Made by a program: the position numbers and the translations under genes
Shown here: positions 3,362 to 37,577 of the stretch, in pieces
Position numbering within the stretch: the first letter of the stretch is position 1
How the letters are laid out: the number at the start of each line of letters is the position of its first letter
Notes under the pieces: generated by a model
Database searches by the model: none
What the model saw: only the letters and a program-made list of their open reading frames with translations
Told to the model about the DNA's origin: nothing
Source: Bacteroidota bacterium
GTDB taxonomy: Bacteria > Bacteroidota > Bacteroidia > Chitinophagales > LD1
Assembly: GCA_947475165.1 (NCBI GenBank)
Contig: CANJLD010000011.1
Span: forward strand, 62,001-126,000
DNA length: 64,000 bases
Direction of reading: 5' to 3'

Positions 3362-3417
3362 TATCTCAAACGTTAGAAGTTAGTGGTACGATTTTATTGA
3401 AAAAAACATCCCTCAGA

Positions 3418-10067: not shown

Positions 10068-10071
10068 CTAT

Positions 10072-12672: not shown

Positions 12673-12818
12673 TTATCTATTTCCATTAGTTATATTCCTG
12701 CACAGCCAACACTTTTAATGTTTTGATTGAATAGAAGTAAATCTGATTAAAAAGTCACGCACAAACAGTTATATCTGTTAACCTATTTGTTGTCGGGAAC
12801 AAATTATTAAAGATAGCT

Positions 12819-14099: not shown

Positions 14100-14292
14100 T
14101 TGAATTTTAATTACAGCATTTTGAATTTCGGACTTCTGAACAAAAGGAGTATAATTAGTGCATTGAATAAAAAGTATTGTTGATATAAGTTATAACTCAT
14201 CATTTTATTGCAAATTTCCGGTTTATAATGTTCGGTAAATTTTTATACCCGGAGCAGAATAAATAAATAATAAGACTTACAAATGGGAACGC

Positions 14293-20634: not shown

Positions 20635-22059
20635 CTAACTATTCATTCTTTTAATTCTTACCCTATCCAATATTTCTTCCAGCAACTTCATTGCAAATGA
20701 TTTTCTAAAGGGTTCTTCTACTAACCGCTGTATGTTTTCAGGCTCTAGAAGTGTATCATATTCCAACCATTGCAAATATACTTTCCGATAACTTAAGGCA
20801 AATAAAATGTATTCTAACCTTCCCAAAGCACTCAGCTTTGTATTGAAACTACGCGAAATAATGCCAGTTACAGAGTAATATCGCTGAATGAATTTTTTTG
20901 CTCCGCTCGCGACATAATCTGCATCAACACCATTAGGTAAATAGGTTAGCTGATTGCCATCATAAGAGGAAATGGCTTCGGTTAGATAATTACCCTTTTT
21001 CCTAACATACTCATGCACTTTTGTACCCGGGTTATAAGTTAAGAAAGTAAGCTTAGCATATATAATTCCCATACGATGGTAATATTTGAAGAGTTCATCA
21101 AAAGTATTTTTATGCGTACCCTCTAATCCTACTATTACTCCTGCGGCAATTTGGATGCCGTACGACTGCACTTTCCTGATGATACGCTCATAGTTTTCGA
21201 TATGATTGGTATTCATTTTATGAACCGAGTTGAGCGAGATTTGGTCAATAGATTCTAGTCCGCAATAAATCATTTTGCAGCGACTATTCCGGAGAGCGGT
21301 AAGCACATCTTCACTATCCAATAACTCTATACACATTTCGGCCATCCATCCCAATGCACCGCTTTCTTTTATCAATTCAGCCACTGTAATAACATGCGCC
21401 ACGTTCACGCCAAAATTATAATCCACTACATTTATAAATTTCCCTTTGTATTGATGAATGATACTTTTCAGAGCATCCATACTGGTAATGTTATAGTTTT
21501 TCTTTTGCATGGTATGAACCATACAAAAAATACATTTCTCAGTACATCCTCTCGAAGTTTCAAGTGGATAGCCCATGAATCGATAATACTTCCCTATGTT
21601 TGGCAAAAGTGTAAAATTCGGTTTCGACAAATTTTGCTTCTCGTTCTCTCCAAAATATCTCTGCTGAAGTCGATTTAATTTCAAGTCAGCAATAAACATA
21701 TCCGCGATCGGTTCAAATAAGCCGCCAAACACAACATCGGCATACTCCAAACAAGTATCTGGCAGTAACGAAGGCAGTTCCCCCCCCCACACAATTTTAG
21801 CGTTAGAATTTATAGCTCTAATTTTTTTTGACAACAAAACTGCCTGATTAAAATTCTGAGAAGAAACCTTTAGCCCGAACATCGCTATGTTGATAGCAGG
21901 TGGTGTATAATCATGTATGAGACTTAAGTTAAAATCAACTATCTCAACCTCATAATGCTCACACAAACTACTAGCTACAGAAAGGAGAGAAAGCGAGATA
22001 ACTCCTTTAGGGAAAGTGGGTAAGTCAAGAAGAAGAATAGATTCAGTTTCTTTGTTCAT
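20635..22059 (-). CDS. B12-binding domain radical SAM protein
   Basis: The 474-residue protein combines an N-terminal cobalamin-binding-like domain (about 1-160, with 'IVWGGELPSLLPDTCLEYADVVFGG') and a radical SAM core carrying SRGCTEKCIFC, cluster cysteines 172, 176 and 179. The sequence 'MIYCGLESIDQISLNSVHKMN' matches the core strand after the SAM site. No reaction is assigned. It begins at the ATG 22059 and is divergent from the first PhyH gene at 22124, so the two may share a 64-base regulatory gap. It may be translated with the multiheme cytochrome just downstream, and an electron-transfer partnership is a possibility rather than a finding. Confidence 0.87.
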   Translation of the reverse strand: MNKETESILLLDLPTFPKGVISLSLLSVASSLCEHYEVEIVDFNLSLIHDYTPPAINIAMFGLKVSSQNFNQAVLLSKKIRAINSNAKIVWGGELPSLLPDTCLEYADVVFGGLFEPIADMFIADLKLNRLQQRYFGENEKQNLSKPNFTLLPNIGKYYRFMGYPLETSRGCTEKCIFCMVHTMQKKNYNITSMDALKSIIHQYKGKFINVVDYNFGVNVAHVITVAELIKESGALGWMAEMCIELLDSEDVLTALRNSRCKMIYCGLESIDQISLNSVHKMNTNHIENYERIIRKVQSYGIQIAAGVIVGLEGTHKNTFDELFKYYHRMGIIYAKLTFLTYNPGTKVHEYVRKKGNYLTEAISSYDGNQLTYLPNGVDADYVASGAKKFIQRYYSVTGIISRSFNTKLSALGRLEYILFALSYRKVYLQWLEYDTLLEPENIQRLVEEPFRKSFAMKLLEEILDRVRIKRMNS

Positions 22060-22123: not shown

Positions 22124-22966
22124 ATGGGCAATAAATTTTCTGCATTAATATTTAAAAACCCTAACATACAACATTCAATTGCCGAAAATGGATTTGTTGT
22201 TATAGACGCAAATCTAAATCGAAAAGTGAATCAATTACATGCATATATATCTAATCATTTCAAATTTCCTTCATCCAATTTCTATTATAGTCTACTTGAA
22301 AATTCGTTTGAGCAGAATAAACGTTTACAAAACATTTTCAAAGAAATTCTTAGCGATTTTTACGAAACTTATTTTAGTGATTACCGTACGCTCACAGAAT
22401 CATTTTTATTTAAGCCAGAAAATACAAATGAAGAGCTTTTACTTCATCAGGATTGGTGTTATACAGATGAGAAAAATCACATAGCTTATAATATATGGAT
22501 TCCGTTACAAGATGTTACACAAACTAATGGCGCGATGTTCTTTTTGCCAGGCAGTCATTTATGGTTCAATAATTTAAGATCGGGTTCCCTTCTTACAGGA
22601 AGAATCAGTACTCTTGACTTACCGAACCACCAAATACAATCTGTTACACTCAAAAAAGGACAAGCTATTATTTTTCATCCAGCAATTTTTCATGGTTCTT
22701 ATCCAAATTTTTCTAATCAAAAGCGCCTTATAGCTACTGCAACTTTATTTCAAAAAAACGCTCCGTTCCTTTATTACAACCAAAGCAAGACTAAAAATGA
22801 AGTAAGCGTATTTCGGTTAGAGGATGATGTCTTTTTAAAAGAGCTACCAACTTTGGCTAGTGGTGGTAAGCCTGAAGGGATTGAAACAGAACAACTAAAC
22901 TACAGCCATCATATTATTACTGCAAATGAGTTGAATTCAAAATTGGCTAGCTTCACGGGCAAATAG
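22124..22966 (+). CDS. PhyH family 2OG-Fe(II) dioxygenase
   Basis: The 280-residue protein is a phytanoyl-CoA dioxygenase-like (PF05721) oxygenase. The iron triad is complete: His108 and Asp110 in LLHQDW, His190 in FHGSYPN, with Arg201 eleven residues on as the 2-oxoglutarate salt bridge. The core strands 'NIWIPLQDVTQTNGAMFFLPGSH' follow the family pattern. Family members hydroxylate or otherwise oxidise unactivated carbons on lipids, sugars, nucleosides or natural products, so the substrate cannot be read from the motif. Unlike most neighbours it ends without a basic helical tail. It is the first gene of a rightward pair with 23098, 131 bases apart. Confidence 0.9.
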   Translation: MGNKFSALIFKNPNIQHSIAENGFVVIDANLNRKVNQLHAYISNHFKFPSSNFYYSLLENSFEQNKRLQNIFKEILSDFYETYFSDYRTLTESFLFKPENTNEELLLHQDWCYTDEKNHIAYNIWIPLQDVTQTNGAMFFLPGSHLWFNNLRSGSLLTGRISTLDLPNHQIQSVTLKKGQAIIFHPAIFHGSYPNFSNQKRLIATATLFQKNAPFLYYNQSKTKNEVSVFRLEDDVFLKELPTLASGGKPEGIETEQLNYSHHIITANELNSKLASFTGK

Positions 22967-23097: not shown

Positions 23098-24021
23098 ATG
23101 ACTAAACCGAAAGTTTTTCGAGACGAGAATTTACAAAATGAATTTGACAAAAATGGCTTTGTCAAGTTTCATATGTTTTCAAAAGCACAGGTAAAGCTTT
23201 TGCAAGACTACTACTTAGAAACACAAAGCGAACACGAAACTGTAATTGGCAGAAAAAAATTTCATGCCACCAACGATACCGATAATGCTGAACTGATTGC
23301 AAGTGCAGACCGTTTTATCAAAAAAATAATGTTTGAAGAGATTGACAAACACTTTTATAATTATAAAACCATTGCTGCAAATTATTTACTCAAACAATCC
23401 TCTGAAGAGTCCGATTTAGGTCCACATCAGGACCTACGTTTTGTGGATGAAGAAAAATATTATTCTTTCAATATTTGGGTTGCTACGGAACCTACTTCTA
23501 AAGAAAATGGTTGCTTGCGGTTTTTAAAAGGCAGTCATCGCATGCATGATACCATACGACCGCTACCATCTTACCCATGGAAATACGAGAGTGTTATCTC
23601 TCTTATACCTCCCTATTTTACAGATATTACTACGGATATTGGGGAATGTATTATTTTGAACCATGCATGTATTCACGGCTCTTATCCAAATCTGTCAGGG
23701 CATACAAGAATAGCTGCCATACTAGCCATGATACCAAAAGAAGCAGATATTTATCATTATTTTCTGCCTGATGGCAACCCAGAAAATGAAGTGGAAAAGT
23801 ATGCAATGACATTGGGTGATTTTATTTCTTTGAAAGTTGGATACCGACCAGAAAATGCACTACTCATAGATAAATTCAAATATGATTTTTCGCCTATTAA
23901 TACTTCTCAGTTTAAGGTCTGGATAAATCAGAACATGTCAAACGAAAAAACGCGTATGGACAAAAGATATAAATTTATCAGAAGTCGATTATCAGCTTTA
24001 GTCAAATCAATTGGGTTATAA
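23098..24021 (+). CDS. PhyH family 2OG-Fe(II) dioxygenase
   Basis: The 307-residue enzyme has His110 and Asp112 (PHQDLRFVDEEK), His193 (IHGSYPN) and Arg204. It is closest in motif detail to the gene at 27884: both have HQD followed by FVDE, then a NIWVA strand, ENGCL, KGSH and a PWxYE loop. The C-terminus ends in a basic amphipathic stretch, 'KFIRSRLSALVKSIGL', which is outside the catalytic fold. It probably follows 22124 in one transcript. A TTTG/TAAATTTT pair sits just before the ATG, a poor promoter match. Substrate unknown. Confidence 0.9.
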   Translation: MTKPKVFRDENLQNEFDKNGFVKFHMFSKAQVKLLQDYYLETQSEHETVIGRKKFHATNDTDNAELIASADRFIKKIMFEEIDKHFYNYKTIAANYLLKQSSEESDLGPHQDLRFVDEEKYYSFNIWVATEPTSKENGCLRFLKGSHRMHDTIRPLPSYPWKYESVISLIPPYFTDITTDIGECIILNHACIHGSYPNLSGHTRIAAILAMIPKEADIYHYFLPDGNPENEVEKYAMTLGDFISLKVGYRPENALLIDKFKYDFSPINTSQFKVWINQNMSNEKTRMDKRYKFIRSRLSALVKSIGL

Positions 24022-24062: not shown

Positions 24063-24929
24063 TCAGGTATATAGAGTAATTTGAAACCTCCTCCTTATTT
24101 TATTTATAAAATTTCCCAACCAAAACCAATCCATCTTTAGATTGATGTATTTTACTACATCGGAAGATAAAGTCTTTACAGGCACACCTGTTTGGGGTCT
24201 TTGGAAGTTATCGTAGGCAATATAAAAATCGCTTTCCATCACCTTATACATTTCTATTTCAGTTGCTCCTTCCGGCTTGCAGTAATGGATGTAGCCTGCA
24301 GCCTTTGGAACCATGGTAAGATTCAATGCCGGGCGTGTTTCCCTGGTTTTATTTGCCGGTGAGTAATGAAGCAAGGAGTGATTATAAATAATCGCATCAC
24401 CTGCTTTCATTGGGATTAATTTTCCATACCTTTTTTCCCAAATTTTATCGCGCTCAAGACTACTGCTTTGATAAATACCCGGCCCACGAATTATGTTTGT
24501 GATTTTATGTGACCCTTCTACCACCCCAAAACATCCGTTTTCTTCACTCGCATCAACCAACGGAATCCATATTGCAGCTGAATGAAATTCACTCTCATCC
24601 ACATAAGTCCAGTCTGCATGCAATGGCATAAAGTTCTCGGGATCCGGATTCTTCACCATAAAATTACCAAACAAAGGCTCATAGCGGTTCAAATAAACTG
24701 CTGCCTTTGGTGCTACAAGTTCGGCAATAGTATCATGAACACGCTTTTTGTATAAAACATCCTTACTAAAATGGGTAGAATGAAAGGCCTCGGAACACTG
24801 GTTTCGAAAATCGGCAAACAGTTTCAGCAATAAATTAACTTCCTCCTGGTTCAGCAATGCAGGAAATAACACATACCCTTTATCGTCAAAATTTTTCTGA
24901 AATAAAGAGTTATTGAAAACAGGGTGCAT
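24063..24929 (-). CDS. PhyH family 2OG-Fe(II) dioxygenase
   Basis: The 288-residue protein is on the strand opposite to its left neighbours. Motifs: His104 and Asp106 in LHADWTYVDE, His188 in LLHYSPAN, Arg199 eleven residues later. The HxD variant uses Ala rather than Gln between the ligands, still allowed in the family. It ends in 'FINKIRRRFQITLYT', a strongly basic amphipathic tail. The leftward group 24063, 24986, 26015 all face the same way and probably share transcription. Substrate unknown. Confidence 0.9.
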   Translation of the reverse strand: MHPVFNNSLFQKNFDDKGYVLFPALLNQEEVNLLLKLFADFRNQCSEAFHSTHFSKDVLYKKRVHDTIAELVAPKAAVYLNRYEPLFGNFMVKNPDPENFMPLHADWTYVDESEFHSAAIWIPLVDASEENGCFGVVEGSHKITNIIRGPGIYQSSSLERDKIWEKRYGKLIPMKAGDAIIYNHSLLHYSPANKTRETRPALNLTMVPKAAGYIHYCKPEGATEIEMYKVMESDFYIAYDNFQRPQTGVPVKTLSSDVVKYINLKMDWFWLGNFINKIRRRFQITLYT

Positions 24930-24985: not shown

Positions 24986-25900
24986 TTATTGTGGCAAATG
25001 TTTTTCTATAAGCTGCACCAACTCTTCCTTGTCGAAAATGTAAGGCTTATACGCTACTACACTTTTCTTCCACTTGGTTGCGTCAGGCTTGGAGTGAAAA
25101 TCGTAATCTTTATAAAAATTTTCATCCACTTCATATTTTTCAATAGTGTTTGCAGCCATATTATCATCTTTGAAATAATAAATCAACTGATAGTTTTGGC
25201 GCAACACGGTAATGGTAATGGAGTGCCTTGTATTTTCCGATAAATTAGCTGTGGACCCATGCACCAATGCTGGATCAAAAATTAGCGCATCACCTAGATT
25301 TACAGTAACCGGGAACATGTATTCGCGTAGCGTATTAGTATGTTCACAAAAATTCCAAGGTACTGTAAGCGAGCGTTGCGTATTACCCCAAAGATGGCTT
25401 CCTGGCAATACCCATATAGGACCGTTTATTTCAGTCACATCACAAAAAGGTATCCAAAGAAAAAGGCAATAATCCTTTTCCTCATCCACCACAGCACTAT
25501 CTTGATGCACCTCCAGTTCACTAACCGGACTGGCCGGTTTTATCTGATACGACCCACCTGTATGTGGGTTTACCTTATCCATATTAAACATTCGCGGAAG
25601 AACACTCCTTGTATTCATATTAATTACGTCCTGGGTTTTCTTACGCACCTCGGGGTTGTGCAAACAACCGCTATTCATAAAATGGTCGTCCAATGCAAAC
25701 CCTTCTATTTTCGAAATTTCATTGAAAGTACCCATAAAAGATCCTATCTCTTCCGGTCTTACAACATTTTTTACCACACACCAGCCATTTTTTAAAAAAT
25801 GTTCCTGGTTTTCTTCATCTAAAAAGAAATTATCTTTTCGGATATTAAAGTACCGATTCGTCTCGTCTGTTGGTTTATTACTAATTGACAGCAAACTCAT
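24986..25900 (-). CDS. PhyH family 2OG-Fe(II) dioxygenase
   Basis: The 304-residue protein has His132 and Asp134 in VHQDSAVVDE, His214 in VHGSTAN and Arg225. It starts with about 25 extra residues compared with neighbours and has a distinctive 'GGSYQIKPASPVSELEVHQD' lead-in, which suggests a different substrate pocket. The tail is short and acidic-neutral rather than basic. It lies 56 bases upstream of 24063 on the same strand. Confidence 0.9.
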   Translation of the reverse strand: MSLLSISNKPTDETNRYFNIRKDNFFLDEENQEHFLKNGWCVVKNVVRPEEIGSFMGTFNEISKIEGFALDDHFMNSGCLHNPEVRKKTQDVINMNTRSVLPRMFNMDKVNPHTGGSYQIKPASPVSELEVHQDSAVVDEEKDYCLFLWIPFCDVTEINGPIWVLPGSHLWGNTQRSLTVPWNFCEHTNTLREYMFPVTVNLGDALIFDPALVHGSTANLSENTRHSITITVLRQNYQLIYYFKDDNMAANTIEKYEVDENFYKDYDFHSKPDATKWKKSVVAYKPYIFDKEELVQLIEKHLPQ

Positions 25901-26014: not shown

Positions 26015-26887
26015 TTAAGACCAATAATAAAGCTCCGACCCACCTTTCGAAAAGTTCAAAAACCCTCCAAAGGTAATTCGCGGAATGGCACCCTTTATAT
26101 CTTCCACTCTATGCCATATAGGCCCCCCCGAAAAAACAAGTACATCTCCCGGCTTAGGTTTCACAGCAAAACTCGGCACATCTTTTACATAAATAAAATT
26201 ACCTGAATCGTCTATAACAAATTCGTTGTTTTCAGGGCTTTCTTTACGTTTCACTTTATCCCAAAGCATGTTGTAAATAGTCAACTCCCCACCTGCTTCT
26301 GGTTGTTGCAACACGACAAAATAACTCAACTGGTCATTCATGTCAATGTTATTCTTAATCAGAGAATAATAAAACATTGACTGCGCCTGAAATAAATTTC
26401 CGCAATGTACATGAAGCCCTCCCATACCCGGAAAAAACATTCTAAACGTGCCCGGTGCAACTTCCTTATCCTTTATTTTATTGAAAGGAATACTTACTTG
26501 ATAATTTTTTGCAACTTTCTTAAAAAAGCTATCAAGTTTAGTCATCAATTTTCCAACTACGTCATGACTGGTTTTGTAATTATCAAAGCGCGCTAATTTT
26601 CTATAATAGCTATCAAGTTTTTCTTCTGTATTTGTAATAATGGCAAAAGGTGCAGGAAAGATTTTGCCAGAGGGGGTTGGCATAAATTCAGATTCGTCAA
26701 GATTTGATAAAAAATTTTTGATATCGCTTACTTCATCCAAGCTATACACATTTTTCATTATAAATCCGTCAAGTGTCCGGCTTCTAATTTGTGAGACTAA
26801 ATCTCCTCGCTGGTCTATTTCGGAAAAAGGGACTTCGATAAAATTGAAAAATATATCCTCGCCAAAAATTCTATCTGTGTTTGTCAT
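26015..26887 (-). CDS. 2OG-Fe(II) oxygenase with a His-x-Gly metal motif (hydroxylase or possible halogenase)
   Basis: The 290-residue protein does not belong to the PhyH group around it. Its C-terminal half has 'GGLHVHCGNLFQAQS' (His159, His161, Gly163), 'GGELTIYN' and 'IWHRVEDIKG..PRITFGGF' with His259 and Arg270 eleven residues later, the order of a double-stranded beta-helix 2-oxoglutarate oxygenase. If His161 is the first ligand, the next-but-one position is Gly, where hydroxylases usually have Asp or Glu. An open site of this kind lets halide bind in the SyrB2, WelO5 and BesD-type halogenases, but two-histidine hydroxylases such as aspartyl beta-hydroxylase share it. An alternative is that His159 pairs with His161. 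Substrate unknown; the N-terminal 130 residues match nothing I recognise. Confidence 0.78.
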   Translation of the reverse strand: MTNTDRIFGEDIFFNFIEVPFSEIDQRGDLVSQIRSRTLDGFIMKNVYSLDEVSDIKNFLSNLDESEFMPTPSGKIFPAPFAIITNTEEKLDSYYRKLARFDNYKTSHDVVGKLMTKLDSFFKKVAKNYQVSIPFNKIKDKEVAPGTFRMFFPGMGGLHVHCGNLFQAQSMFYYSLIKNNIDMNDQLSYFVVLQQPEAGGELTIYNMLWDKVKRKESPENNEFVIDDSGNFIYVKDVPSFAVKPKPGDVLVFSGGPIWHRVEDIKGAIPRITFGGFLNFSKGGSELYYWS

Positions 26888-26940: not shown

Positions 26941-26999
26941 ATTATTTTCGAATTTTAATTTATACGTTGAACCAGGGGTTCTCTTTCAAGAAATTAAGC

Positions 27000-27887
27000 A
27001 TGAATTCCGTTAATCCAATTTTTAAAAACGATAAAACTCAGTTTCGCTTCGAGCGAGATGGCTTTGTAAAAATTTCCTTGCTCAATCAGGAAGAAGCAGA
27101 TGATTTAACTGCTTTTTACGAGAAACATCGGCAGCAACATGAAACAACCGGTCATCTTCATCACACCACAACCGACTCTGGGCATGCTGAGTTAATTTAT
27201 AGTGTTGATGCAAAAATCAAAACTGTGTTTTTGCCACGACTAGAAAAAATTCTTGCAAATTTTAAGGCTTTAGCCGGTTGTTTTCATATCAAAGAACCCG
27301 GAACGGGTTCCAATACCGATATGCACCAAGACCCCACTTTTGTTGACGAGTCAAATTTTTGCAGCGCTAATGTATGGGTAGCACTTCAGGATATTGATAA
27401 AAAAAATGGAAATCTGTTTTTTGTCCGCGGATCTCACCGGGTTGTTTCGTCCTTGCGAGCTACACCCTCTTATTCCAGTTATTATCAAAATTTTAAAGAA
27501 GAATTAACGGAAATGATTACTCATGTTCCGCTCAAAAAAGGGGAGGCAGTAGTTTTTAGTAACGCAACAATCCATGGAGCTACTGAAAACTTGACCGATG
27601 GAATTCGATTGGCGGCTACCTTACTTGTTTGTTCGGCTCAAGCCGAATGGATATTGTATTATCAGGACAAAGACAAAAAGAGCGACAAAGTTGAGAAGCA
27701 TCAATTGAATCTTGATTCATTCATATCGTTCTCAAAAAACGGCATGCCCGAGCATAACACACCTCCGGAGATTATACCTTACAAATACCCCGTTATTTCG
27801 AAAAAAGAATTTTTAGCCCGCATTGGTGCTAAAAGAAATTGTATGCAACATATTGCCGATGTTTTTAGAATGAAATTCTCTATATGA
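27000..27887 (+). CDS. PhyH family 2OG-Fe(II) dioxygenase
   Basis: The ATG at 27000 is preferred over the in-frame TTG at 26967, because it gives an N-terminus like those of the neighbouring PhyH proteins (short, then 'FxxDGFV'). The 295-residue enzyme has His109 and Asp111 in MHQDPTFVDE, His192 in IHGATEN and Arg203. The C-terminal tail, 'MQHIADVFRMKFSI', is amphipathic. Its stop overlaps the start of the next PhyH gene by four bases (ATGA), so the two are translationally coupled. Substrate unknown. Confidence 0.88.
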   Translation: MNSVNPIFKNDKTQFRFERDGFVKISLLNQEEADDLTAFYEKHRQQHETTGHLHHTTTDSGHAELIYSVDAKIKTVFLPRLEKILANFKALAGCFHIKEPGTGSNTDMHQDPTFVDESNFCSANVWVALQDIDKKNGNLFFVRGSHRVVSSLRATPSYSSYYQNFKEELTEMITHVPLKKGEAVVFSNATIHGATENLTDGIRLAATLLVCSAQAEWILYYQDKDKKSDKVEKHQLNLDSFISFSKNGMPEHNTPPEIIPYKYPVISKKEFLARIGAKRNCMQHIADVFRMKFSI

Positions 27888-28759
27888 AGCCCTTGTTCCT
27901 ATCAGATAGTCTGCAAAAAGAATTTGAAGAAAATGGTTTTGTCAAAGTAGATTTGCTAAGTAAAATGGAGGTTGATGCGCTACTTATATCTTATAAATCT
28001 GTCTTATCTGAACATGAAAAAATAAATATCCCTTACATTACCACTAGCCACTCCAACAATGCTGATTTAATATCAAAGGTGGATAGCCTGTTGCAAAAAG
28101 TAATTGCTCCTGCGATAAATAAAATTATGTGTAATTATAATTTGCTGTTCGGCAATTATCTTGTTAAAATGCCTGTAGCAAATTCGGAAACTGACCCACA
28201 TCAGGACATAACGTTTGTTGATGAGAAGGAATTTGCATCTGTAAATATTTGGGTGGCGCTGCAGGATACCAATGAAGAAAATGGCTGTCTATATATTTTA
28301 AAAGGTAGTCATAAACTCATGCACACTTTGCGTCCTTCGCAAAACTACCCATGGGCGTATGAAAATGCCAAGGAGGAAATTAAAAGGCTCGCCACACCTT
28401 TTCAGGCAAAAGCCGGTCAGGCGTTTATATTTAATCATGCAGTGGTACATGGTTCGTATCCCAATAAAACGAATCGGGCTCGTATCGCAGCTGTGCTTGC
28501 AGCCTATCCTGACAAAGCAGATTTGCTGCATTATTATTTACCTACAACAGAAAACAACTTAGTTAGCAAATATCTAATGACCAAGCAAGCGTATCTTCAT
28601 TTTAAAAAAGGTGAACCTCCTGCAATGGGAATTTTATTAGAAAAGGTGAACTTTGATTTTAAACAAATAAGCAAAACAGAATTTGAAAGACTTTGGCAAA
28701 GAAGAACGGGTTCTACTTCTTTTTTAAATCAAGCGCTTAAATTTCTGAAAAGGAGATAA
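27884..28759 (+). CDS. PhyH family 2OG-Fe(II) dioxygenase
   Basis: The 291-residue enzyme has His106 and Asp108 in PHQDITFVDE, His189 in VHGSYPN and Arg200. It is the near relative of the gene at 23098, most likely a duplicate from before the block was rearranged. It overlaps the previous gene by four bases and stops five bases before the double-domain PhyH gene. The end, 'FLNQALKFLKRR', is a basic amphipathic tail. Confidence 0.9.
   Translation: MKPLFLSDSLQKEFEENGFVKVDLLSKMEVDALLISYKSVLSEHEKINIPYITTSHSNNADLISKVDSLLQKVIAPAINKIMCNYNLLFGNYLVKMPVANSETDPHQDITFVDEKEFASVNIWVALQDTNEENGCLYILKGSHKLMHTLRPSQNYPWAYENAKEEIKRLATPFQAKAGQAFIFNHAVVHGSYPNKTNRARIAAVLAAYPDKADLLHYYLPTTENNLVSKYLMTKQAYLHFKKGEPPAMGILLEKVNFDFKQISKTEFERLWQRRTGSTSFLNQALKFLKRR
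28749..28755 (+). promoter_or_regulatory. Shine-Dalgarno sequence AAAGGAG before the double PhyH gene
   Basis: AAAGGAG lies 8 bases upstream of the ATG at 28764 and inside the last codons of the previous gene. Strong Shine-Dalgarno sequences are uncommon before genes in this window and in Bacteroidota generally, and this one fixes the start. Confidence 0.6.
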
Positions 28760-28763
28760 AATA

Positions 28764-30473
28764 ATGATCAAGAATTTATCGGAACCTCAAAGCTCACCAT
28801 ATTTGGAAGCATTAGACAAATTAGGCTTTTGCACTTTCCCACTGTTTTACAATAATGAGGTAGAGCAATTACTTTCGTTATATCACAACAATTTCAGCGA
28901 AAAAAAAATCGATGCACTTTATGCTACGCATAATTCAAATCCGGTAGAGCAAAGTCTGTCAATAAGCGCAGAAATAAAGAAAATAATCTTTGACCCGCTT
29001 CATAAAATTTTCCCTGAATACGAATATTTTCTGGGACATTTTATGGTAAAGGGTGCTCATGTAGAAAAAGAGTTTTCATTGCATCAAGATTGGAATATAG
29101 TTGATGAATCAAAATTCAGAAACTATCAAGTCTGGATTCCGCTTCAAATAAGTTATCCGGTTAATGGTGGGATGTTTGTAATCCCCGGAAGCCATCATTT
29201 TTTTGGAAACTATCGTTCAGGTAGTTATGGAATTCCTGTTGTACCTTTTGATGAAACCGTAAAGCCATTAGTAAACGACCTTATCGTTCCGGCAGGCAAT
29301 GTGTTAGTTTATCATAATGGTTTATTTCATGCTTCTCATCCAAATACAACTGACAAAATTCGAATTGCAGTAATAGCAAATTTTGTAGAAAAGCGCGCGC
29401 CCACTTATTATTTTCACAAAAACAATGCAATTGGCGCAACTGAACTTTACAAAATTACCGGAGAATCATTGATTGCTAATTTACCTCAATTGGAAAAGGG
29501 GATTGTAGATAAAAGTTTTACCGAAAAACTAAATATTGGCAATTCTGAAACCGTGAACAGCCAAATCACTTCTTCCGATTTAGAGGCTCGTTACAAAGAT
29601 AAATTTGGACAAACACCTGCCCAACAAGTTAAGCAACTCCACATAACTAATAGTAGCGGTCTCGAAGAAGTGCTGAATGAGGATGGATATACAGTGATTA
29701 ACTTTCTTGAAAAGGAACAGGTAGAGTTCTTTCAAAATGAATATCAATCTCTTTTCGGAACTCTCGATAAAAAACCGGGTCGTTTTACTACGCTTCAAGA
29801 CACTGATTCGGTAATGAAAAAACGTGTTCACGATTTTATTGTTCAGCACGTTGACACTCCTTTGCGAAACCACTTTAGAGATTTCATTATCCCTGTTTCG
29901 CAATTTTATACAAAAAAAGCCCATACATCGGGCGATATTGATTTGCATGGCGACACAACATTGTTAATCAATCATCAATTAGAGCCGCATTATGCAATTT
30001 GGGTGCCGCTTGTAGATGTAGATGATTTCAATGGAACACTTACTGTTATCCCTCGGAGCCACCGCGTACGCGGAGCTTTTTTCAGCGGCACTTTTATCTG
30101 TTATCACGAAACCCGCCTTGCTTGGCTTAGACAATTTGAACTCCCGATAAAGTTAAAAGCGGGGCAAGCGGTGGTTTTTGATAACAATATTCTTCATAAC
30201 TCAACTGCCAACAAAACCGATGCCGACCGATTATGTTTTACTTTTCGGATAACCCATAGAAATTCTCAATATTATAGTTTTTACGGACTTGGGAAAAACA
30301 CAAATGATTTTTCGATTTATAAGGAAAAACAAGATTTTTATATGGATCCCAACTGGAATGGTGAAAACAAAAGCTTAACGGCAACATACGCGGGAACCCT
30401 TAAGAACAGTGTTACCAGGGTTACCCAGGAAGAACTGCTAAAAATTTTTCAGCCAACGATATCTGCCAAGTAA
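28764..30473 (+). CDS. Double-domain PhyH oxygenase
   Basis: The 569-residue protein is two PhyH units in one chain. Domain 1 has His107, Asp109 (LHQDWNIVDE), His189 (FHASHPN) and Arg200. Domain 2 has His395, Asp397 (LHGDTTLL), His478 (LHNSTAN) and Arg489. Both triads are complete, so both should bind iron and 2-oxoglutarate. A linker of about 70 residues (roughly 235-300) joins them. The second unit is divergent and lacks the VDE that follows HxD in domain 1. Its stop codon is immediately followed by the ATG of the Wzt-like ABC ATPase, which ties the oxygenase to export. Two successive oxidations on one substrate, or two different ones, are both possible. Confidence 0.9.
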   Translation: MIKNLSEPQSSPYLEALDKLGFCTFPLFYNNEVEQLLSLYHNNFSEKKIDALYATHNSNPVEQSLSISAEIKKIIFDPLHKIFPEYEYFLGHFMVKGAHVEKEFSLHQDWNIVDESKFRNYQVWIPLQISYPVNGGMFVIPGSHHFFGNYRSGSYGIPVVPFDETVKPLVNDLIVPAGNVLVYHNGLFHASHPNTTDKIRIAVIANFVEKRAPTYYFHKNNAIGATELYKITGESLIANLPQLEKGIVDKSFTEKLNIGNSETVNSQITSSDLEARYKDKFGQTPAQQVKQLHITNSSGLEEVLNEDGYTVINFLEKEQVEFFQNEYQSLFGTLDKKPGRFTTLQDTDSVMKKRVHDFIVQHVDTPLRNHFRDFIIPVSQFYTKKAHTSGDIDLHGDTTLLINHQLEPHYAIWVPLVDVDDFNGTLTVIPRSHRVRGAFFSGTFICYHETRLAWLRQFELPIKLKAGQAVVFDNNILHNSTANKTDADRLCFTFRITHRNSQYYSFYGLGKNTNDFSIYKEKQDFYMDPNWNGENKSLTATYAGTLKNSVTRVTQEELLKIFQPTISAK

Positions 30474-31757
30474 ATGAAAGAAAGTCCATCAATAGCCTTA
30501 GAGGTTAAAAACATTTCAAAAAAATATTTTATTGCTAAAACGGGGCATTCAGAGGTAAATGATGAAGAACATTTTTGGGCATTATACGATGTTTCTTTTA
30601 CATTATATCGTGGTGATGTATTAGGTATTATTGGCAACAACGGATCCGGCAAATCAACACTTTTAAAAATACTGAGCCATATTACCAAACCAAGTTCAGG
30701 TGAAGCCCGTTTTTACGGTTCGGTTACTTCTATACTGGATATTGGAAACAATTTTCATCCTGATTTAACGGGGCGCGAAAACGTAAGAATACAACTTCAG
30801 CTAGCTAATATAAAACCTCCGGAATTTGCTTTGTATTACGATAACGTTAAGCAGTTTAGTGAAATAGGTGAGTTTTTTGATCAGCCCGTAAAATTTTATT
30901 CGAGTGGCATGTTTTTGCGCCTGGCTTTTTCGATCGCCTTTCATATTTCTTCCGAAATTCTTGTTTTGGATGAAGTGCTGTCTGTGGGCGATGAAGGGTT
31001 TCGCCTAAAATGTCAGGAATTATTGAAAGCATTTGCGCAAATGGGTAAAACCATTTTGTTCGTGTCACATAACCGATTAGAAATTTTAGATCTTAGCAAT
31101 AAGTGTATTTGGTTAGACAAAGGGCAAATTCGCAAAAGTGGTTTGCCTTCAGAAATTTTAGGAGAATATTTTGCTTTGCATCGGGAAAAATTTGATACAC
31201 AAAGAAATATACTTGACTTCAACGTCAGCCAAATTGATGATAATGGCACCATTCACTTGTTCTGGGACGAAAAAAATTCTCCCGGAAACGATGTTTTATC
31301 CATGCGGCAACTTTCTGTTGGTTCACCTAGTGGAAAATTGACACAATCGGACCCGATTGAAATTGAATTTTTAATTAATAAAAAGCAAAGGGGAATACAA
31401 GTTGGTGCGTTCTTCTTTGTACAAGACGTTTTTTATCAGCCGGTTTTAGTAGGACATTTTTTAAATAACTCTGAACAAAAAAAATTTGGCAGCGATCTGA
31501 AAGACGAAATTGGATTAATAAAAATTAGCTGCACTATTCCTGCCAATTTTCTGATACCCGGAAAATATTATTTCCTTGTTCGTTTTGGGATGGAAGAAAA
31601 TGAATGGCATAGTGCATCAACAGAGGCATTCAGGTTCTCTGAAAAACTAAGTTTTACAATACATGCCAGCTCTGAGTATATCGATTATGTCGGTGATGTT
31701 AGCAAAGGATCTGTTCGTCCAAAATTACAATGGTCTGTAAAAAACTTTAAGGGCTAA
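30474..31757 (+). CDS. Wzt/TagH-like ABC transporter ATP-binding protein with C-terminal Wzt domain
   Basis: The 427-residue protein has a Walker A, GNNGSGKST (54-62), an unusual signature YSSGM (142-146), Walker B ILVLDE (162-167) and the switch His199, all in an arrangement typical of polysaccharide exporters (Wzt, RfbE, TagH). The tail from about 240 looks like a Wzt C-terminal beta-sandwich, which in O-antigen exporters reads the capped end of the glycan. No permease (Wzm) gene lies in this window, so it must be elsewhere or outside the edges. The gene abuts the double PhyH gene upstream with no gap, and 67 bases separate it from the methyltransferase gene. Confidence 0.92.
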   Translation: MKESPSIALEVKNISKKYFIAKTGHSEVNDEEHFWALYDVSFTLYRGDVLGIIGNNGSGKSTLLKILSHITKPSSGEARFYGSVTSILDIGNNFHPDLTGRENVRIQLQLANIKPPEFALYYDNVKQFSEIGEFFDQPVKFYSSGMFLRLAFSIAFHISSEILVLDEVLSVGDEGFRLKCQELLKAFAQMGKTILFVSHNRLEILDLSNKCIWLDKGQIRKSGLPSEILGEYFALHREKFDTQRNILDFNVSQIDDNGTIHLFWDEKNSPGNDVLSMRQLSVGSPSGKLTQSDPIEIEFLINKKQRGIQVGAFFFVQDVFYQPVLVGHFLNNSEQKKFGSDLKDEIGLIKISCTIPANFLIPGKYYFLVRFGMEENEWHSASTEAFRFSEKLSFTIHASSEYIDYVGDVSKGSVRPKLQWSVKNFKG

Positions 31758-31824: not shown

Positions 31825-32772
31825 ATGATGTTTTCATTTATTGCAGTTATTATTATTCAACTTGCCATCATTGTATGGCTGTTGATAAAAAGAGAAAGTA
31901 ATGGCACAAAAGCAGAAACCGTATCCTCCAATAATTCTGCACAAGTAGCCGCCTTCTATAACCAAACTACACATAAATTTTTGGAGGTATATGGTGAAAT
32001 TATCCAGGCATTTCGCACAAATGATATTAGTGATTATCTTGATTACACTATTCAAAATGCCGAGATTAAAGACGGACAAAAAATTTTAGATGCCGGCTGT
32101 GGTGTGGGTGGACCTGCCTGTTATTTCGCCTCTAAATTAAACGTGGATATAGACGGAATTACTGTTTCAGAAGTTCAGGTTGAAAAAGCTAAGAAAATAA
32201 TAGCTTCGAAAAAACTGAGAGGAAAAGTAAATGTCAGGCAAGGCGATTACCATCATATAGATGAAGTTTACGGGAGCGAAGTTTTTGACCGGATACTTTT
32301 TTTGGAATCGTTTGGACATTCAGGTAATAAATCTTTGCTCATTGAAAAATCGTTTCGTGCCCTTAAGCCAGGAGGCATCCTTTACATTAAAGATTTATTT
32401 GTAAGAGAATCTCCAAACAAAGAAGATGGAGAAAAAATTGACCGCATTGTAGCTGAAATAAACAGGGCATATTGTTATAACGTTGCAGATTTACACGAGG
32501 TACTTGCCACATTGCGCAGATTAAATTTCATTTTACTTTTTCTAAAAACGCCAGAAGTAAAAACCGGAGAGTTTGAGCACCTCAGTATTTCAAACGATTT
32601 TCAAAACCTATTCGACATAGCCAAAATAATTTCGTGGGAAGATTATATTTTCCCAATCGACTTTTATGAAATAAAGGTAATGAAGCCCCCTTTCGATTTA
32701 AAACAGGAAAAGCATTTGTATTTTTTAAATCGTCCTGAGGTGAACGAAAAATCAGAATGGCAGGTCAATTAA
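31825..32772 (+). CDS. Membrane-anchored class I SAM methyltransferase
   Basis: The 315-residue protein begins with a hydrophobic anchor (about 3-21), then a class I methyltransferase with motif I 'ILDAGCGVGG' (87-96) and 'DRILFLESFGHSG' and 'FRALKPGGILYIKDLF' later (post-motif regions). The closest look is to cyclopropane/sterol/prenyl-type C-methyltransferases. It is followed, 2 bases after its stop or overlapping by 16 depending on the start used, by a UbiA-like prenyltransferase. Together these suggest a prenylated lipid or quinone-like acceptor being methylated at the membrane, or a modification of the lipid carrier. Substrate not known. Confidence 0.85.
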   Translation: MMFSFIAVIIIQLAIIVWLLIKRESNGTKAETVSSNNSAQVAAFYNQTTHKFLEVYGEIIQAFRTNDISDYLDYTIQNAEIKDGQKILDAGCGVGGPACYFASKLNVDIDGITVSEVQVEKAKKIIASKKLRGKVNVRQGDYHHIDEVYGSEVFDRILFLESFGHSGNKSLLIEKSFRALKPGGILYIKDLFVRESPNKEDGEKIDRIVAEINRAYCYNVADLHEVLATLRRLNFILLFLKTPEVKTGEFEHLSISNDFQNLFDIAKIISWEDYIFPIDFYEIKVMKPPFDLKQEKHLYFLNRPEVNEKSEWQVN

Positions 32773-32774
32773 AA

Positions 32775-33920
32775 ATGAAAGAAATTTTTAGAATCGGTGA
32801 TTGGTGGCAAAGCAAAGCAGCCTTACTGATAGGCCTGGTTTATTTATATACTGCATGGTTTGAAATTTCTTTTGAAAAAATGATTTGGCTCTCTTTGCTT
32901 TCTATCTCCACCGTTTCGGGTTTTGCTTCAGTGGGTTATTTATGTAACGATTTTTTTGACCGCGAAAAAGATTTTCTTGTAGAAAAGAAAAACTTTTTGC
33001 TTGGAAAATCTCCTTTAAAAATTTTTCTGCTCTTTTTAATTGCGCTCTTGATTCTGTTTTTACCGTGGCTATACCTGCCTTTCAACAAAATTTCGATTCT
33101 GATTATTGCGATTGAGTTGGTGCTGTTTGTATTATATTCTGTAAATCCATTCCGGTTTAAAGAGCGCGGAGCGATTGGAATATTTACAGATGCACTCTAT
33201 GCTCATGTTATACCCGCATTACTATCTGCTTTTACTTTTATGCTTGCCGCATCAAAACCATTTCCATTTTTACCTATGGCCATTCTTCTTCTTTGGCAAT
33301 TGGCAAGTGGCATTCGTAATATTCTTTTGCATCAGCATGAGGATGCTGATAAAGATAGCCAAGGCGGTATGCAGAATTTTGCTTCTCGGGTACCCGTTAA
33401 AAAATTTTCCCGATATGTTAAAACACTTATCTTTTCAGAAATATTTTTAAGTGCTCTATTTCTCCTGTATCTCTCCAACGAAAATTCGTTGTTTATTTTC
33501 AGCACCATTCTTATTTTCTCGTTTTCTTCAATGCTGTTTGTTGTTTTTTATAATCCGGGTTTTGATTTTTTTTTCCAAACACGATGGAAATTTTTTCCGA
33601 ATCCGATTTTCGAAAAATGGCTTCCAATAGCTATTTTGCTGGGCTTATCACATACCGACAAACGTTTTCTATTCATGTTGCTGATTCATATAACGCTGTT
33701 CAACTTCAACTTGTATACTGAAATTTTGCATCATGTGCTGCTGCCATTAAAAAATGCTTTGAAGCATATCTGCATTCAAAGCATGATTAATATGCGTAGG
33801 ATTTTTTCGTTTTTAATTAACTACTCTATTTATTGTGGGTTTCTCATTTTCGGAGTGGATTTAAAAAAAGAAAATTCTTCAGCGCTTGATTATTTTAAAA
33901 AAAATCGAAACGCAAAATAG
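32775..33920 (+). CDS. UbiA family prenyltransferase
   Basis: The ATG at 32775 gives a 381-residue polytopic protein; an in-frame ATG at 32757 would overlap the previous gene by 16 bases and adds six residues. The first metal-diphosphate motif, NDxxDxxxD, appears as NDFFDREKD (58-66), and a second Asp-rich motif, HEDADKD, lies near residue 200. About eight or nine membrane helices follow the family plan. UbiA enzymes attach prenyl chains to aromatic or other acceptors, including decaprenyl-phosphate 5-phosphoribose synthase, which feeds arabinan lipid carriers. Either role fits; the paired methyltransferase favours an aromatic or lipid acceptor. The C-terminus has an extra soluble stretch of about 60 residues. 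Confidence 0.85.
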   Translation: MKEIFRIGDWWQSKAALLIGLVYLYTAWFEISFEKMIWLSLLSISTVSGFASVGYLCNDFFDREKDFLVEKKNFLLGKSPLKIFLLFLIALLILFLPWLYLPFNKISILIIAIELVLFVLYSVNPFRFKERGAIGIFTDALYAHVIPALLSAFTFMLAASKPFPFLPMAILLLWQLASGIRNILLHQHEDADKDSQGGMQNFASRVPVKKFSRYVKTLIFSEIFLSALFLLYLSNENSLFIFSTILIFSFSSMLFVVFYNPGFDFFFQTRWKFFPNPIFEKWLPIAILLGLSHTDKRFLFMLLIHITLFNFNLYTEILHHVLLPLKNALKHICIQSMINMRRIFSFLINYSIYCGFLIFGVDLKKENSSALDYFKKNRNAK

Positions 33921-33981: not shown

Positions 33982-36000
33982 ATGAACAACAATATTTTTG
34001 TTTTTGTAGTGTGCGGCAATCGTAACCATATAGATACCCTTCATTACTCTTTGCTGGCGCTGAAGCGTGTTTCAAAAAACGAAATTATAGTAATCACCGA
34101 TGCTTCAAGAAATGAGATTCCGGTGGTGCACGAAAACCACATTGACGTTGCTACTCCCAAAGAACTGAGTCATCATCAGGCGAGTATCTATTTAAAAACA
34201 AGTTTGCACAAATTTCTTCCATCAGGAAATAATTATTGCTACCTCGATACAGATGTTGTAGCTGTGAATGAAAAAGTAGATTTAATTTTCAACCATTTTG
34301 CTACACCTATCACTTTTGCACCGGACCATTGTGTGTTAGATGAATTCAGCCCTTCGGCTATTAATTGTAATTGTAGCGCAGAATTTGTCACATGGCAAAA
34401 AGAGTTGAAGCAGCTTTTTCATGAATACAAAGATTTGATTCGGCAACCCCGCGTGCCGGAAAATTTCGAGAAAAAGCAAAAATTGCTTCAGCGTTTAGAA
34501 AAAATTAAAAAAAGTAAATGGGGGTACCGCTTTCTTTCGCTCAAATTTAATCTGGCACGAAACACATTTAGATTAGATGCAGATACTTTTCTAGACAAGA
34601 AAAAACATTACTGGCACGATAAAGAAGGGAAGCCGGTGCTATATGAAAACGAAGTGCAGTTTTTATTTGAAGAAACCATTGAGCGCAAATCTTCTTTTCG
34701 CTGTGACAGAACTGATTTTAAAACATGGACTATTGGCGGCAAAAATGTTTTTGATTGCCGTTGCAATCATTTAAACGAAGCGATAAAAGAAACTTTTGCT
34801 ATAGAACTGAGCGATGCTCAGTGGCAACATTGGAACGGAGGTGTTTTTCTTTTCAACGACAACAGCCGCGAGTTTTTAAACGAATGGCACCATAAAACTT
34901 TAAAAATATTTTCTCTGCCATATTGGAAAACCCGCGACCAGGGAACCCTGATTGCCACAGCCTGGCAATTCGGATTGCAACACCATCCAACACTTCCGAT
35001 TCAGTTTAATCTTATTGCCGATTACCAAAACCTGAACATACAGCATAAGGGCGAACTTCGGTTTGCTATAAAAAATGTACCTGGTGAAATTCATCCGAAC
35101 CTTATTCATATTTATCACCATTGGGGAGATAAACTATGGAATGTTTGGCAAGCAGTTGAAAAAGCAACAGGTATTGAAACAGATGCTGACGGGCAAACTA
35201 TTAATTCACTTTGGATAGGAAAAACATTGAGTCAACTCGAACTTCTCACCATTCATTCTTTTCGTGCGTTGGGCTATCGGTTTAAACTATGGGTATATGA
35301 GCCTCTAGAAACTGCTCTGCCAAACGATGTGGTAGTTGGGGACGCTTCCACTATAATTCCAATCTGTAAAATTTTTGCTTACCGAAACAAAAATACTTTC
35401 GGACATGGTAAAGGAAGCTATGCCGGGTTCTCCGATATTTTTCGCTACAAACTTCTTTATGAAAAAGGCGGCTGGTGGGTAGATATGGATGTTACCTGTT
35501 TGCACCCTTTTAATTTTGAGTCGCCTTATGTTTTTCGCAGCCATCACGATTTAAGTGTAGTGGGCAACGTGATGAAATGCCCAAAGGGAAGCAAACTGAT
35601 GAAACAATGTTATGAAGAAGCAATTAGCACTGTAACTGAGCACAACACAGATTGGCTGAAACCCATTGCAATTCTTAATAAGCATATAGCCGCGCTGCAA
35701 CTCGAAAACTATATTCAATACGACATAAGCAACGAAGACAAATGGCAGAGCACCAACCGGTTTATCTGGCATAAAGATACTTTACCCACGCATTGGCATT
35801 TCATTCATTGGCAAAATGAAGAATGGCGGAAAAATGCAGTAGAAAAAACTGACTTCTATTACCACTCTAAATTAGCTTCATTGATGGCTCAACACCAACT
35901 TTACCGTATGCCCGACTCGCGTTTCGGAGAATTGATAAATGCAATGAGGCATAGTTCTTATTTTCGTGTATTGGAAAATTTGTTTTTAGCCGATATATGA
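33982..36000 (+). CDS. Two-domain glycosyltransferase (two DxD motifs)
   Basis: The 672-residue protein has one candidate nucleotide-sugar motif in each half. In the N-terminal half 'YCYLDTDVVAV' contains Asp89-Thr90-Asp91. In the C-terminal half, 'GGWWVDMDVTCLHPF' has Asp501-Met502-Asp503, a form typical of the Gly_transf_sug/Caps_synth families (PF04488/PF05704). Middle residues 'WNGGVFLFND' and 'RDQGTLIATAWQF' support a GT-A-like N-terminal unit. A double transferase could add two sugars in turn. Its TGA overlaps the ATG of the radical SAM gene at 35997 by four bases, so the radical SAM protein may modify the sugar or the glycan this enzyme makes. Confidence 0.85.
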   Translation: MNNNIFVFVVCGNRNHIDTLHYSLLALKRVSKNEIIVITDASRNEIPVVHENHIDVATPKELSHHQASIYLKTSLHKFLPSGNNYCYLDTDVVAVNEKVDLIFNHFATPITFAPDHCVLDEFSPSAINCNCSAEFVTWQKELKQLFHEYKDLIRQPRVPENFEKKQKLLQRLEKIKKSKWGYRFLSLKFNLARNTFRLDADTFLDKKKHYWHDKEGKPVLYENEVQFLFEETIERKSSFRCDRTDFKTWTIGGKNVFDCRCNHLNEAIKETFAIELSDAQWQHWNGGVFLFNDNSREFLNEWHHKTLKIFSLPYWKTRDQGTLIATAWQFGLQHHPTLPIQFNLIADYQNLNIQHKGELRFAIKNVPGEIHPNLIHIYHHWGDKLWNVWQAVEKATGIETDADGQTINSLWIGKTLSQLELLTIHSFRALGYRFKLWVYEPLETALPNDVVVGDASTIIPICKIFAYRNKNTFGHGKGSYAGFSDIFRYKLLYEKGGWWVDMDVTCLHPFNFESPYVFRSHHDLSVVGNVMKCPKGSKLMKQCYEEAISTVTEHNTDWLKPIAILNKHIAALQLENYIQYDISNEDKWQSTNRFIWHKDTLPTHWHFIHWQNEEWRKNAVEKTDFYYHSKLASLMAQHQLYRMPDSRFGELINAMRHSSYFRVLENLFLADI

Positions 36001-37577
36001 TTTTAGAACCGAAGACTATTGATGCCTATAACCGTTCTCGTAATTGCGCAAACAATCGAATAGTTTGTCACGCTCCGCTCACAAATTTGAACTTTGAACA
36101 AACCGGTGAAGCTCGAGCATGTTGCTATAATTTTAAAGAAGTGCTAGGCAAATGGCCTCAGCAATCCATACGCGAAATTTGGGAGGGAGCACAACTACAA
36201 TCGCTTCGTAAAAATATAGAACAAAATAATTTAGGCGGAGGTTGCACAGAATGCGGTAAAATGATTGATGTCGGAAACTATCAAGGTGTGCGTGCAAAAT
36301 ATTATGATGAATTTGCTTTAGGTTTTCTGAGTCAGAAAATTTCCGGTATTAAAAATAACCTGACCGGTTCTTTCACTTACCCTAAAGTGATAGAATTTGA
36401 ATTGAGCAATCAATGCAATTTAGAGTGTGTAATGTGCAATGGAAGCTTTTCTTCCAGCATCAGAAAAAATCGCGAAAAACTTCCGCCCATTATTTCGCCT
36501 TACAACGGAAAATTTGTGGATGAACTAGAAGAGTTTATCCCGCATTTAACCGATGCAAAATTTTTGGGTGGCGAACCCTTTATGATTGATATCTATCTCG
36601 ACATTTGGGAGCGCATTCGAAAAATAAATCCGAACATTCGTATTCACATTACCACCAACGGAACTTTTTTAAACAACAGGATTAAAGATTTACTTGAAGG
36701 GTTGCGCGCAGGAATTGTTATGTCAATGGATTCGGTGGAGCGCGAAACCTATATGAAAATCAGAGTTAATAGCAACTATGATAAAGTAATTGAGAATCTC
36801 GATTATTTCCTCGATTATACTAAACGAAAAAATACGTTTATCTCCATTGCCGCATGTCCTATTATTTATAACTGGAAAGAACTGCCACAGCTATTAAAGT
36901 TTTGTCTGGGAAAAAATATTGCGTTGTACTTCAATGCAGTTTTTACACCGTTCGAACTTTCGCTACGGGAACAAACTATAGAGTTACAAGAAGAAGTTTT
37001 AGCGTACCTAGAATCGCATTCTCTTCCGGCTATAAAAGGCTCTGCAAATTCTCCGCGCAATTTGAGCATTCATGCATTTCATGATTTTACCAAACAATTA
37101 AAAGGTTGGCTGCTTGAACGCAAAGTTGTTTTAATTCAGAAGGATGAAAAAATTGAACAGATAGAAAAAGTTTTCAATACTAACGTTGACGTTGATTCTT
37201 TGGTTGAATGGTCGCCAGAAAAAATCTCGAAATTGCTTTTAGAAATTACTGCGCTGGAAGGAAAAGGTTTGTTTGATAAAGAGAAGAAACTGAAAAGAAA
37301 ATTAGAACAACTGCTAATTGCTAGTCCAGAGGGCAAACTGAAAGATTCATTGGCCTGCTTTGTATCATTGTACGATAAATTTGATTCTACCTATTCATCT
37401 GAAGAACGACAACAAAAGCTTTTAGTCTTCTCTCAATTTATAGAAACTCATCCCAAGAGAAATCAGGCACTTGCCCATTTGTCAACTTTATCACCTCTAT
37501 TTATTGCCGATTGGTTTTGTGAAACCAGCGTTGAACAAATGCAGTTCATGATGGAACAGTTTTTCAACGTGCAATAA
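35997..37577 (+). CDS. Radical SAM protein with N-terminal twitch-type cluster domain
   Basis: The 526-residue protein has two cysteine sets. The N-terminal set (Cys24, Cys42-Cys43, Cys83, Cys86) looks like the auxiliary cluster domain usually found at the C-terminus of SPASM/twitch proteins, here placed before the core. The radical SAM set is CNLECVMC (Cys140, 144, 147), with GGEPF following. N-terminal twitch proteins are a recognised radical SAM subfamily without assigned chemistry, as far as I know. About 200 residues at the C-terminus show no motif. It overlaps the glycosyltransferase gene by four bases and converges with the next gene by 14 bases. Confidence 0.88.
   Translation: MILEPKTIDAYNRSRNCANNRIVCHAPLTNLNFEQTGEARACCYNFKEVLGKWPQQSIREIWEGAQLQSLRKNIEQNNLGGGCTECGKMIDVGNYQGVRAKYYDEFALGFLSQKISGIKNNLTGSFTYPKVIEFELSNQCNLECVMCNGSFSSSIRKNREKLPPIISPYNGKFVDELEEFIPHLTDAKFLGGEPFMIDIYLDIWERIRKINPNIRIHITTNGTFLNNRIKDLLEGLRAGIVMSMDSVERETYMKIRVNSNYDKVIENLDYFLDYTKRKNTFISIAACPIIYNWKELPQLLKFCLGKNIALYFNAVFTPFELSLREQTIELQEEVLAYLESHSLPAIKGSANSPRNLSIHAFHDFTKQLKGWLLERKVVLIQKDEKIEQIEKVFNTNVDVDSLVEWSPEKISKLLLEITALEGKGLFDKEKKLKRKLEQLLIASPEGKLKDSLACFVSLYDKFDSTYSSEERQQKLLVFSQFIETHPKRNQALAHLSTLSPLFIADWFCETSVEQMQFMMEQFFNVQ

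Follow-up and report, generated by a model that had tools for sequence, protein, structure and literature searches.

A WelO5-type Fe(II)/2-oxoglutarate halogenase-like gene in a PhyH-rich locus of a Bacteroidota bacterium

By its sequence, the protein described here (P0001) is neither a PhyH nor an AspH enzyme but a member of the WelO5 family, and it is quite probably a halogenase dependent on Fe(II) and 2-oxoglutarate (2OG). Its gene lies in the window, i.e., the whole stretch of 64,000 nucleotides analysed from a Bacteroidota genome (Table 1). Enzymes of the WelO5 family chlorinate unactivated carbons and, to our knowledge, the WelO5-type halogenases known come from cyanobacterial alkaloid pathways. 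The observation goes beyond chance, because the family match covers the whole length, chains in the PDB match, Gly stands at the acid position in 14/14 rows of the query clade and the gene is under purifying selection. A WelO5-type mechanism with a substrate drawn from P0001's own locus is the reading that we prefer, and we consider it moderately likely.

Table 1. Coordinates of the P0001 gene, of its active-site codons and of genes in the window
Feature	Position	Strand	Remarks
WelO5-type Fe(II)/2OG halogenase-like gene (P0001)	26015..26887	-	290 aa; PF22814 190.9 bits; WelO5, WelO5*, Wi-WelO15 chains E 1.4e-28 to 1.8e-30
Codons His161-Cys162-Gly163	26399..26407	-	first metal ligand and empty acid position by alignment to WelO5 H164-V165-G166
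Codon Ser188	26324..26326	-	aligned with WelO5 Ser189
Codon His259	26111..26113	-	second metal ligand by alignment; 37/37 rows
Codon Arg270	26078..26080	-	presumed 2OG carboxylate anchor; 37/37 rows
PhyH-family 2OG oxygenase (HQD), divergent neighbour	26967..27887	+	counterpart beside the gene in L021, L022, L023, L040
PhyH-family 2OG oxygenase (HQD)	27884..28759	+	PhyH profile; recurring
Double PhyH protein (HQD and HGD)	28764..30473	+	two PhyH stretches; recurring
ABC transporter ATPase, TagH/Wzt-like	30474..31757	+	below those models' cut-offs
PhyH-family 2OG oxygenase (HQD)	24986..25900	-	PhyH profile
PhyH-family 2OG oxygenase (HAD)	24063..24929	-	PhyH profile
PhyH-family 2OG oxygenase (HQD)	23098..24021	+	PhyH profile; recurring
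PhyH-family 2OG oxygenase (HQD)	22124..22966	+	PhyH profile; recurring
Radical SAM protein, recurring neighbour	20635..22059	-	weak B12-binding match, 29.4 bits, below cut-off 32.1
SAM methyltransferase, possible tailoring gene	31825..32772	+	profile match
UbiA-type prenyltransferase, possible tailoring gene	32757..33920	+	45.1 bits, cut-off 34.2
DXD-type glycosyltransferase match	33982-36000		nearer to the P0001 gene than the sugar-modifying genes named in the text
GT9 match	49216-50409		nearer to the P0001 gene than the sugar-modifying genes named in the text
AspH-type gene	1050-1832	-	PF05118 127.7 bits

Family assignment and active-site residues

The Pfam model PF22814, named 'Carrier-protein-independent halogenase WelO5' in Pfam, spans residues 16-290 of P0001 and positions 1-277 of 277 of the profile (190.9 bits, cut-off 27, E 4e-56), and a model for 2OG oxygenases in general gives a weak match of 25 bits, under its cut-off of 27. 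At E 0.1, P0001 was hit by none of the NCBIfam models, that of the SyrB2-type chlorinating enzymes (TIGR01762) included, and neither the PhyH (PF05721) nor the AspH (PF05118) profile matched it at this threshold; the AspH relative in the same window served as the positive control and matched PF05118 (Table 1). All seven nearby PhyH proteins tested do match the PhyH profile, and the remark of the first-pass annotation that the protein is unlike its PhyH neighbours is borne out. A sequence search of the PDB returned six distinct WelO5-type sequences (8aut, 8acv, 6gem, 5j4r, 5iqs and 5iqu; E 1.4e-28 to 1.8e-30) and a seventh row at E 0.15, which we think is a chance match. P0001 and WelO5 are identical at 80 of 268 paired positions (~30%). 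The plus strand at 26015-26887, translated in one frame, carries several stops.

The translation of P0001 places the motif LHVHCGN at residues 158-164, the WHR strand at W258-H259-R260 and an arginine, Arg270, eleven residues past His259, just as the first-pass annotation had read the core. In a MAFFT alignment of P0001 with 23 relatives and WelO5, the WelO5 residues H164, G166, N167, F169, S189 and H259 pair with H161, G163, N164, F166, S188 and H259 of P0001. The published WelO5 numbers are taken to be those of the printed chain minus one. PDB entry 5IQU bears the title 'WelO5 G166D variant', and hence Gly163 occupies the acid site, the position to which it had been assigned at first pass; the same variant is tabulated in a review (PMC8407142).

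Among 37 aligned family rows, H161, H259 and R270 are present in all 37, and Arg270 is presumed, from the fold, to be the anchor of the 2OG carboxylate. The acid position is occupied by Gly in 24 rows (WelO5 included) and by Asp or Glu in 11, with two ambiguous rows. One of the 11 is the Acinetobacter row, which has an alignment gap at this position and the motif H-H-D, while the ambiguous rows (L084, L086) have the motif H-I-H-Q-E; their aligned residue is His, although the largest tree and the residue counts treat them as acid rows. In WelO5, a hydrogen bond of S189 prevents OH rebound according to a QM/MM study described in PMC13244439. The equivalent S188 is found in 22 of the 24 Gly rows (the exceptions being L087_4880 and L091_1435) and in 10 of the 13 non-Gly rows; being common in the latter too, it is no separator of the Gly and acid groups.

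Two other residues were considered as substitutes for the missing ligand. His159 is ruled out as a shared replacement third ligand, since it is not conserved (10/24 Gly rows), its place being taken by Phe in five rows of the query clade and in a sixth row, L087_10466. Asp248, in a PGD motif, is present in 24/24 Gly rows and in 4/13 others, which often have Ser or Glu, but it was set aside as a replacement acid: WelO5 too has Asp there (PGD before the second His), and we know of no such Asp ligand in WelO5. Where P0001 aligns with the lid of WelO5 (215-232), its sequence differs considerably from that of WelO5 but is similar in its nearest orthologues; in WelO5, this lid changes shape on substrate binding (PMC5480362). 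The lid comparison hence suggests that P0001 and its nearest orthologues share a substrate that is unlike the WelO5 alkaloids.

An AlphaFold2 model of P0001, built on a five-row alignment (A1; the window protein and L021-L024), has a mean pLDDT of 58.6 and a pTM of 0.67, with residues 132-181, including the HCG loop, below 50; therefore nothing was drawn from it on the metal site. With this weak model, the first 17 rows of a Foldseek search are WelO5-type chains, and a second structure comparison places ten WelO5-type entries on top (Z 12.4-13.3, the next entry at 10.5), aligned over 212-243 residues with an rmsd of 4.0-4.8. A WelO5-type fold class is supported for P0001 at the level of this predicted structure.

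The missing acid alone is insufficient for calling a protein a halogenase, because AspH, which has two His and no acid, hydroxylates (PMC13168262). The main rival reading is an AspH-like acid-less oxygenase with water in the third site, which hydroxylates, desaturates or epimerises its substrate. It draws on AspH itself, for which the same article describes two His ligands and water at the acid site, and in which halogenation was not seen, on the ten PhyH domains of the window, all of which are HxD oxygenases (H-Q-D, H-A-D or H-G-D, read by eye), and on variants of WelO5* that, offered a foreign substrate, formed a hydroxylated product alongside the chlorinated one (PMC8766452). However, P0001 is homologous to the halogenase WelO5 and lacks a match to PF05118, so that homology gives no support to the AspH-like alternative that the first-pass annotation had allowed for; the residues aligned with the metal positions and Ser189 of WelO5 are kept, and Gly stands in 14/14 rows of the query clade while relatives with Asp or Glu exist. 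We consider such an oxygenase improbable. The reading of H-x-G as the mark of an Fe/2OG halogenase, made at first pass, is supported as far as sequence goes, with P0001 in the WelO5 family and the aligned ligands kept.

Gene neighbourhood and the candidate substrate

Seven PhyH genes, one of them double, lie near the P0001 gene (Table 1), as does a gene for a protein with CXXCH-like haem motifs. The genome has 20 PhyH domain matches, 17 of them on the 144-kb contig of P0001 and three on contig 6, and an HxD-type motif was found in 15 of the 20 loci by a narrow text pattern. A near-identical gene set, partly rearranged, occurs in L021 and L022, and much of the set in L023, L040 and L041. Stretches around family members were compared at 28 loci, which represent 25 of the 27 genomes of the order with the gene (two of them with two loci each, and without G029 and G769) together with L023. 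At least one PhyH-like open reading frame (ORF) is present in 24 of the 28, and none in the stretches taken of L029, L031, L037 and L090; in G029, a PhyH match lies ~3 kb from the family gene. Within P0001's own taxonomic family, 17 of the 18 genomes carrying the gene were examined, and G014 and G025 have no PhyH in the stretches taken. An ABC ATPase relative was counted in 13 of the 28 loci; the locus of the own genome was 3.8 kb long, its ABC ATPase being uncounted. The recurring gene set makes it plausible that P0001 and the PhyH enzymes around it work on one common product.

Radical-SAM-like ORFs are numerous in the window between 20635 and 62021, and the three tested match (20635-22059, 35997-37577 and 60768-62021), the last of them scoring above the threshold of the twitch-domain model NF033640. 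Look-alike ORFs lie at 11356-15927 and 55494-57026, of which 14293-15927 matches the arylsulfotransferase model PF14269 (54.2 bits). Around 44.5 and 58 kb of the same contig, further AspH-like ORFs were seen by eye. Both the window at 60330-60750 and contig 11 at ~55.6-56.3 kb (L070) carry short peptide-like repeats (FGNAPNDIVSPVSV-like and EKGNRANDIVRRIS-like), which may be a single DNA repeat translated in different frames.

Elsewhere, the contig carries genes for a DegT aminotransferase, a carbon-nitrogen hydrolase, a carbamoyltransferase, a GT2, the N-acetyl sugar amidotransferase WbuX (229.6 bits, cut-off 203.2) and an ABC-2 permease with PhyH genes on either side. Such a set of genes is typical of a surface-glycan locus, but ~48 to 60 kb separate these sugar-modifying genes and the permease from the P0001 gene; matches to two glycosyltransferases lie nearer, within the window (Table 1). 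None of the four carrier-protein matches of the genome is on the P0001 contig, and the genome has no match to condensation domains. As an oxygenase cluster shares the contig with surface-sugar genes, P0001 may halogenate a new kind of molecule, and the chance that its substrate is a glycan or glycolipid falls somewhat short of even.

Less likely than not is a WelO5-type halogenase whose substrate has no connection with the surface-glycan genes of the contig and is instead a lipid or a small molecule that diffuses. Known WelO5-type enzymes halogenate free alkaloids (PMC8407142), genes for a UbiA prenyltransferase and a methyltransferase are near, G025 and G014 lack PhyH in the stretches taken, and the named sugar genes are distant, all of which favour such a substrate; yet the genome is without a condensation-domain match, and the sugar-modifying genes and the PhyH-flanked ABC-2 permease are on the same contig.

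Distribution, phylogeny and selection

A WelO5-family gene was found in 18 of 30 genomes of P0001's own taxonomic family and in 27 of 396 genomes of the order (those 18 included), in 3 of 395 genomes of a phylum sample over the PF22814 cut-off (the own genome included) and in 0 of 14 control genomes. Four relatives from a contig search are 51-77% identical to P0001, and one further relative is a Chitinophaga pinensis record. A viral collection scanned with A1 encoded a relative in 0 of 567 stretches, and phages gave no match. Among plasmids, one distant HHD-type relative was found, from Acinetobacter johnsonii; its gene (L043, 2940-3710) adjoins that of a LysE translocator on a plasmid of 6.4 kb.

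Two of the trees examined, the largest and a smaller one, are without the Acinetobacter row and the partial HCG row L020, which was also left out of the 37-row alignment and the residue counts; the distant rows L090 and L081 (32 and 28 bits) were left out of the largest tree. The alignment contains neither L025 to L028 nor the damaged or incomplete copies of G581 and G022, and L021, L022 and L024 were each entered once. In the largest tree, the query clade comprises 14 rows, all of them HCG, with support of 99/99, and WelO5 groups outside this clade with two HIHQE rows (92/91); the smaller tree leaves the place of WelO5 open. On the best trees, at least four changes between Gly and acid are needed, and 0 of 200 bootstrap trees of the largest tree manage with one. 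A topology that unites all Gly rows is not rejected (p-AU 0.107 for the smaller and 0.085 for the largest tree), and the well-supported branches force one such change only, many branches being long. Repeated switching between Gly and acid is suggested.

Copies with and without the acid also occur near each other: G022 (L030) has HCG and HAD copies ~4 kb apart (9178-10251 and 14395-15294), G483 (L091) has HCG and HCE copies ~0.9 kb apart (1435-2256 and 3174-4043), and G460 has two HCG copies and one HCE copy within ~17 kb. The pairs in the L030 and L091 clusters are candidates for natural halogenase/hydroxylase pairs. In G014 (L029, 6336-8965), three adjacent HNG copies lie beside an ABC ATPase.

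Between L021 and L022, dN is 0.031 and dS 0.756, and between the window gene and L021, pN is 0.146 and pS 0.733; if L021-L022 is set aside, the synonymous changes of all 14 pairs are near or past saturation. The gene is under purifying selection. Both His and the Arg are kept in 37/37 rows, and these two observations stand against a non-catalytic or degenerate family member retained because the PhyH enzymes need it as a partner. Degenerate copies do occur elsewhere in the family, namely a piece of 33 positions in G022 and a copy with two stops in G581, but for P0001 this is the most improbable of the readings considered.

A broader proposal, which we rate as rather unlikely, is that the Bacteroidota order, probably Chitinophagales, holds an unstudied WelO5 branch that would halogenate surface glycans or glycolipids, with the metal carboxylate lost or regained repeatedly (HCG and HNG beside HCE, HAD, HKD and HQD) and with Gly and acid copies that sometimes share a cluster and would be halogenase and hydroxylase sisters on one product. 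In the open-access literature searched, WelO5 together with Bacteroidetes or Bacteroidota was not found, although absence in print is not thereby proven; for a Chitinophaga 2-oxoglutarate halogenase, that literature yielded one paper, apparently on a thiol dioxygenase, and for a chlorinated O-antigen polysaccharide and a halogenase, one review, apparently of cyanotoxins. A branch of the family set in PhyH-rich loci of Bacteroidota would extend the range of substrates open to such biocatalysts, and one would have to ask whether bacteria carry halogenated glycans or glycolipids on their surface. The family mixes Gly with Glu or Asp at the acid site, its HCG and HCE members have the same middle Cys, and it would offer natural pairs in which to look for features, other than the absent acid, that steer an enzyme to halogenation or to hydroxylation.

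Proposed mechanism and comparison with known enzymes

In the preferred reading, P0001 would be a WelO5-type, carrier-independent Fe(II)/2OG aliphatic halogenase. Its iron would be held by His161 and His259, and Gly163, we infer, would vacate the carboxylate site, where chloride or bromide could then bind, with 2OG bound on the iron and by Arg270. Reaction with O2 and decarboxylation of 2OG would give a halo-oxo-Fe(IV) centre, which would abstract hydrogen from a free substrate; with the help of Ser188, OH rebound would be restrained and the halogen would be transferred instead. The substrate would most likely be an intermediate in the making of this PhyH-rich locus's product, which may be a surface glycan or glycolipid that an ABC system exports.

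A halogenase-fold enzyme could also transfer another anion natively, such as nitrite or azide, but we know of no natural case of this and the locus shows nothing pointing to another anion. Some Fe/2OG halogenases do transfer non-native anions (PMC12766721), and a paper on nitration and azidation is among the references of PMC13168262; as an account of P0001, such a transfer is nevertheless very improbable.

Compared with known systems, the halogenase reading of P0001 touches four groups of enzymes. The SyrB2-type enzymes (TIGR01762), BesD and AdeV/AdaV are Fe/2OG halogenases in which HXG/A replaces HXD/E (PMC11186838), a trait that resembles P0001; the PDB sequence search gave the WelO5-type chains and one chance row. 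AspH (aspartate/asparagine beta-hydroxylase, PF05118) is like P0001 in having two His without the acid, but it belongs to a different family and hydroxylates. The PhyH oxygenases of the cluster (PF05721) have the Fe/2OG class and the locus in common with P0001, whereas their ligands are HxD and P0001 has Gly. The closest likeness is to the cyanobacterial Fe/2OG alkaloid halogenases WelO5, WelO5*, AmbO5 and Wi-WelO15 (PF22814), with which P0001 shares the whole length, the H-x-G...H ligands, the Arg, the equivalent of Ser189 and, with WelO5-type enzymes, a C-terminal YYWS end. P0001 differs from WelO5 in having Cys rather than Val in the middle of the motif, in its Bacteroidota host and in the PhyH genes around it. 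Hence P0001 is an additional member of a known family, and it is the phylum, the gene neighbourhood and the mixture of Gly and acid sisters that are unusual.
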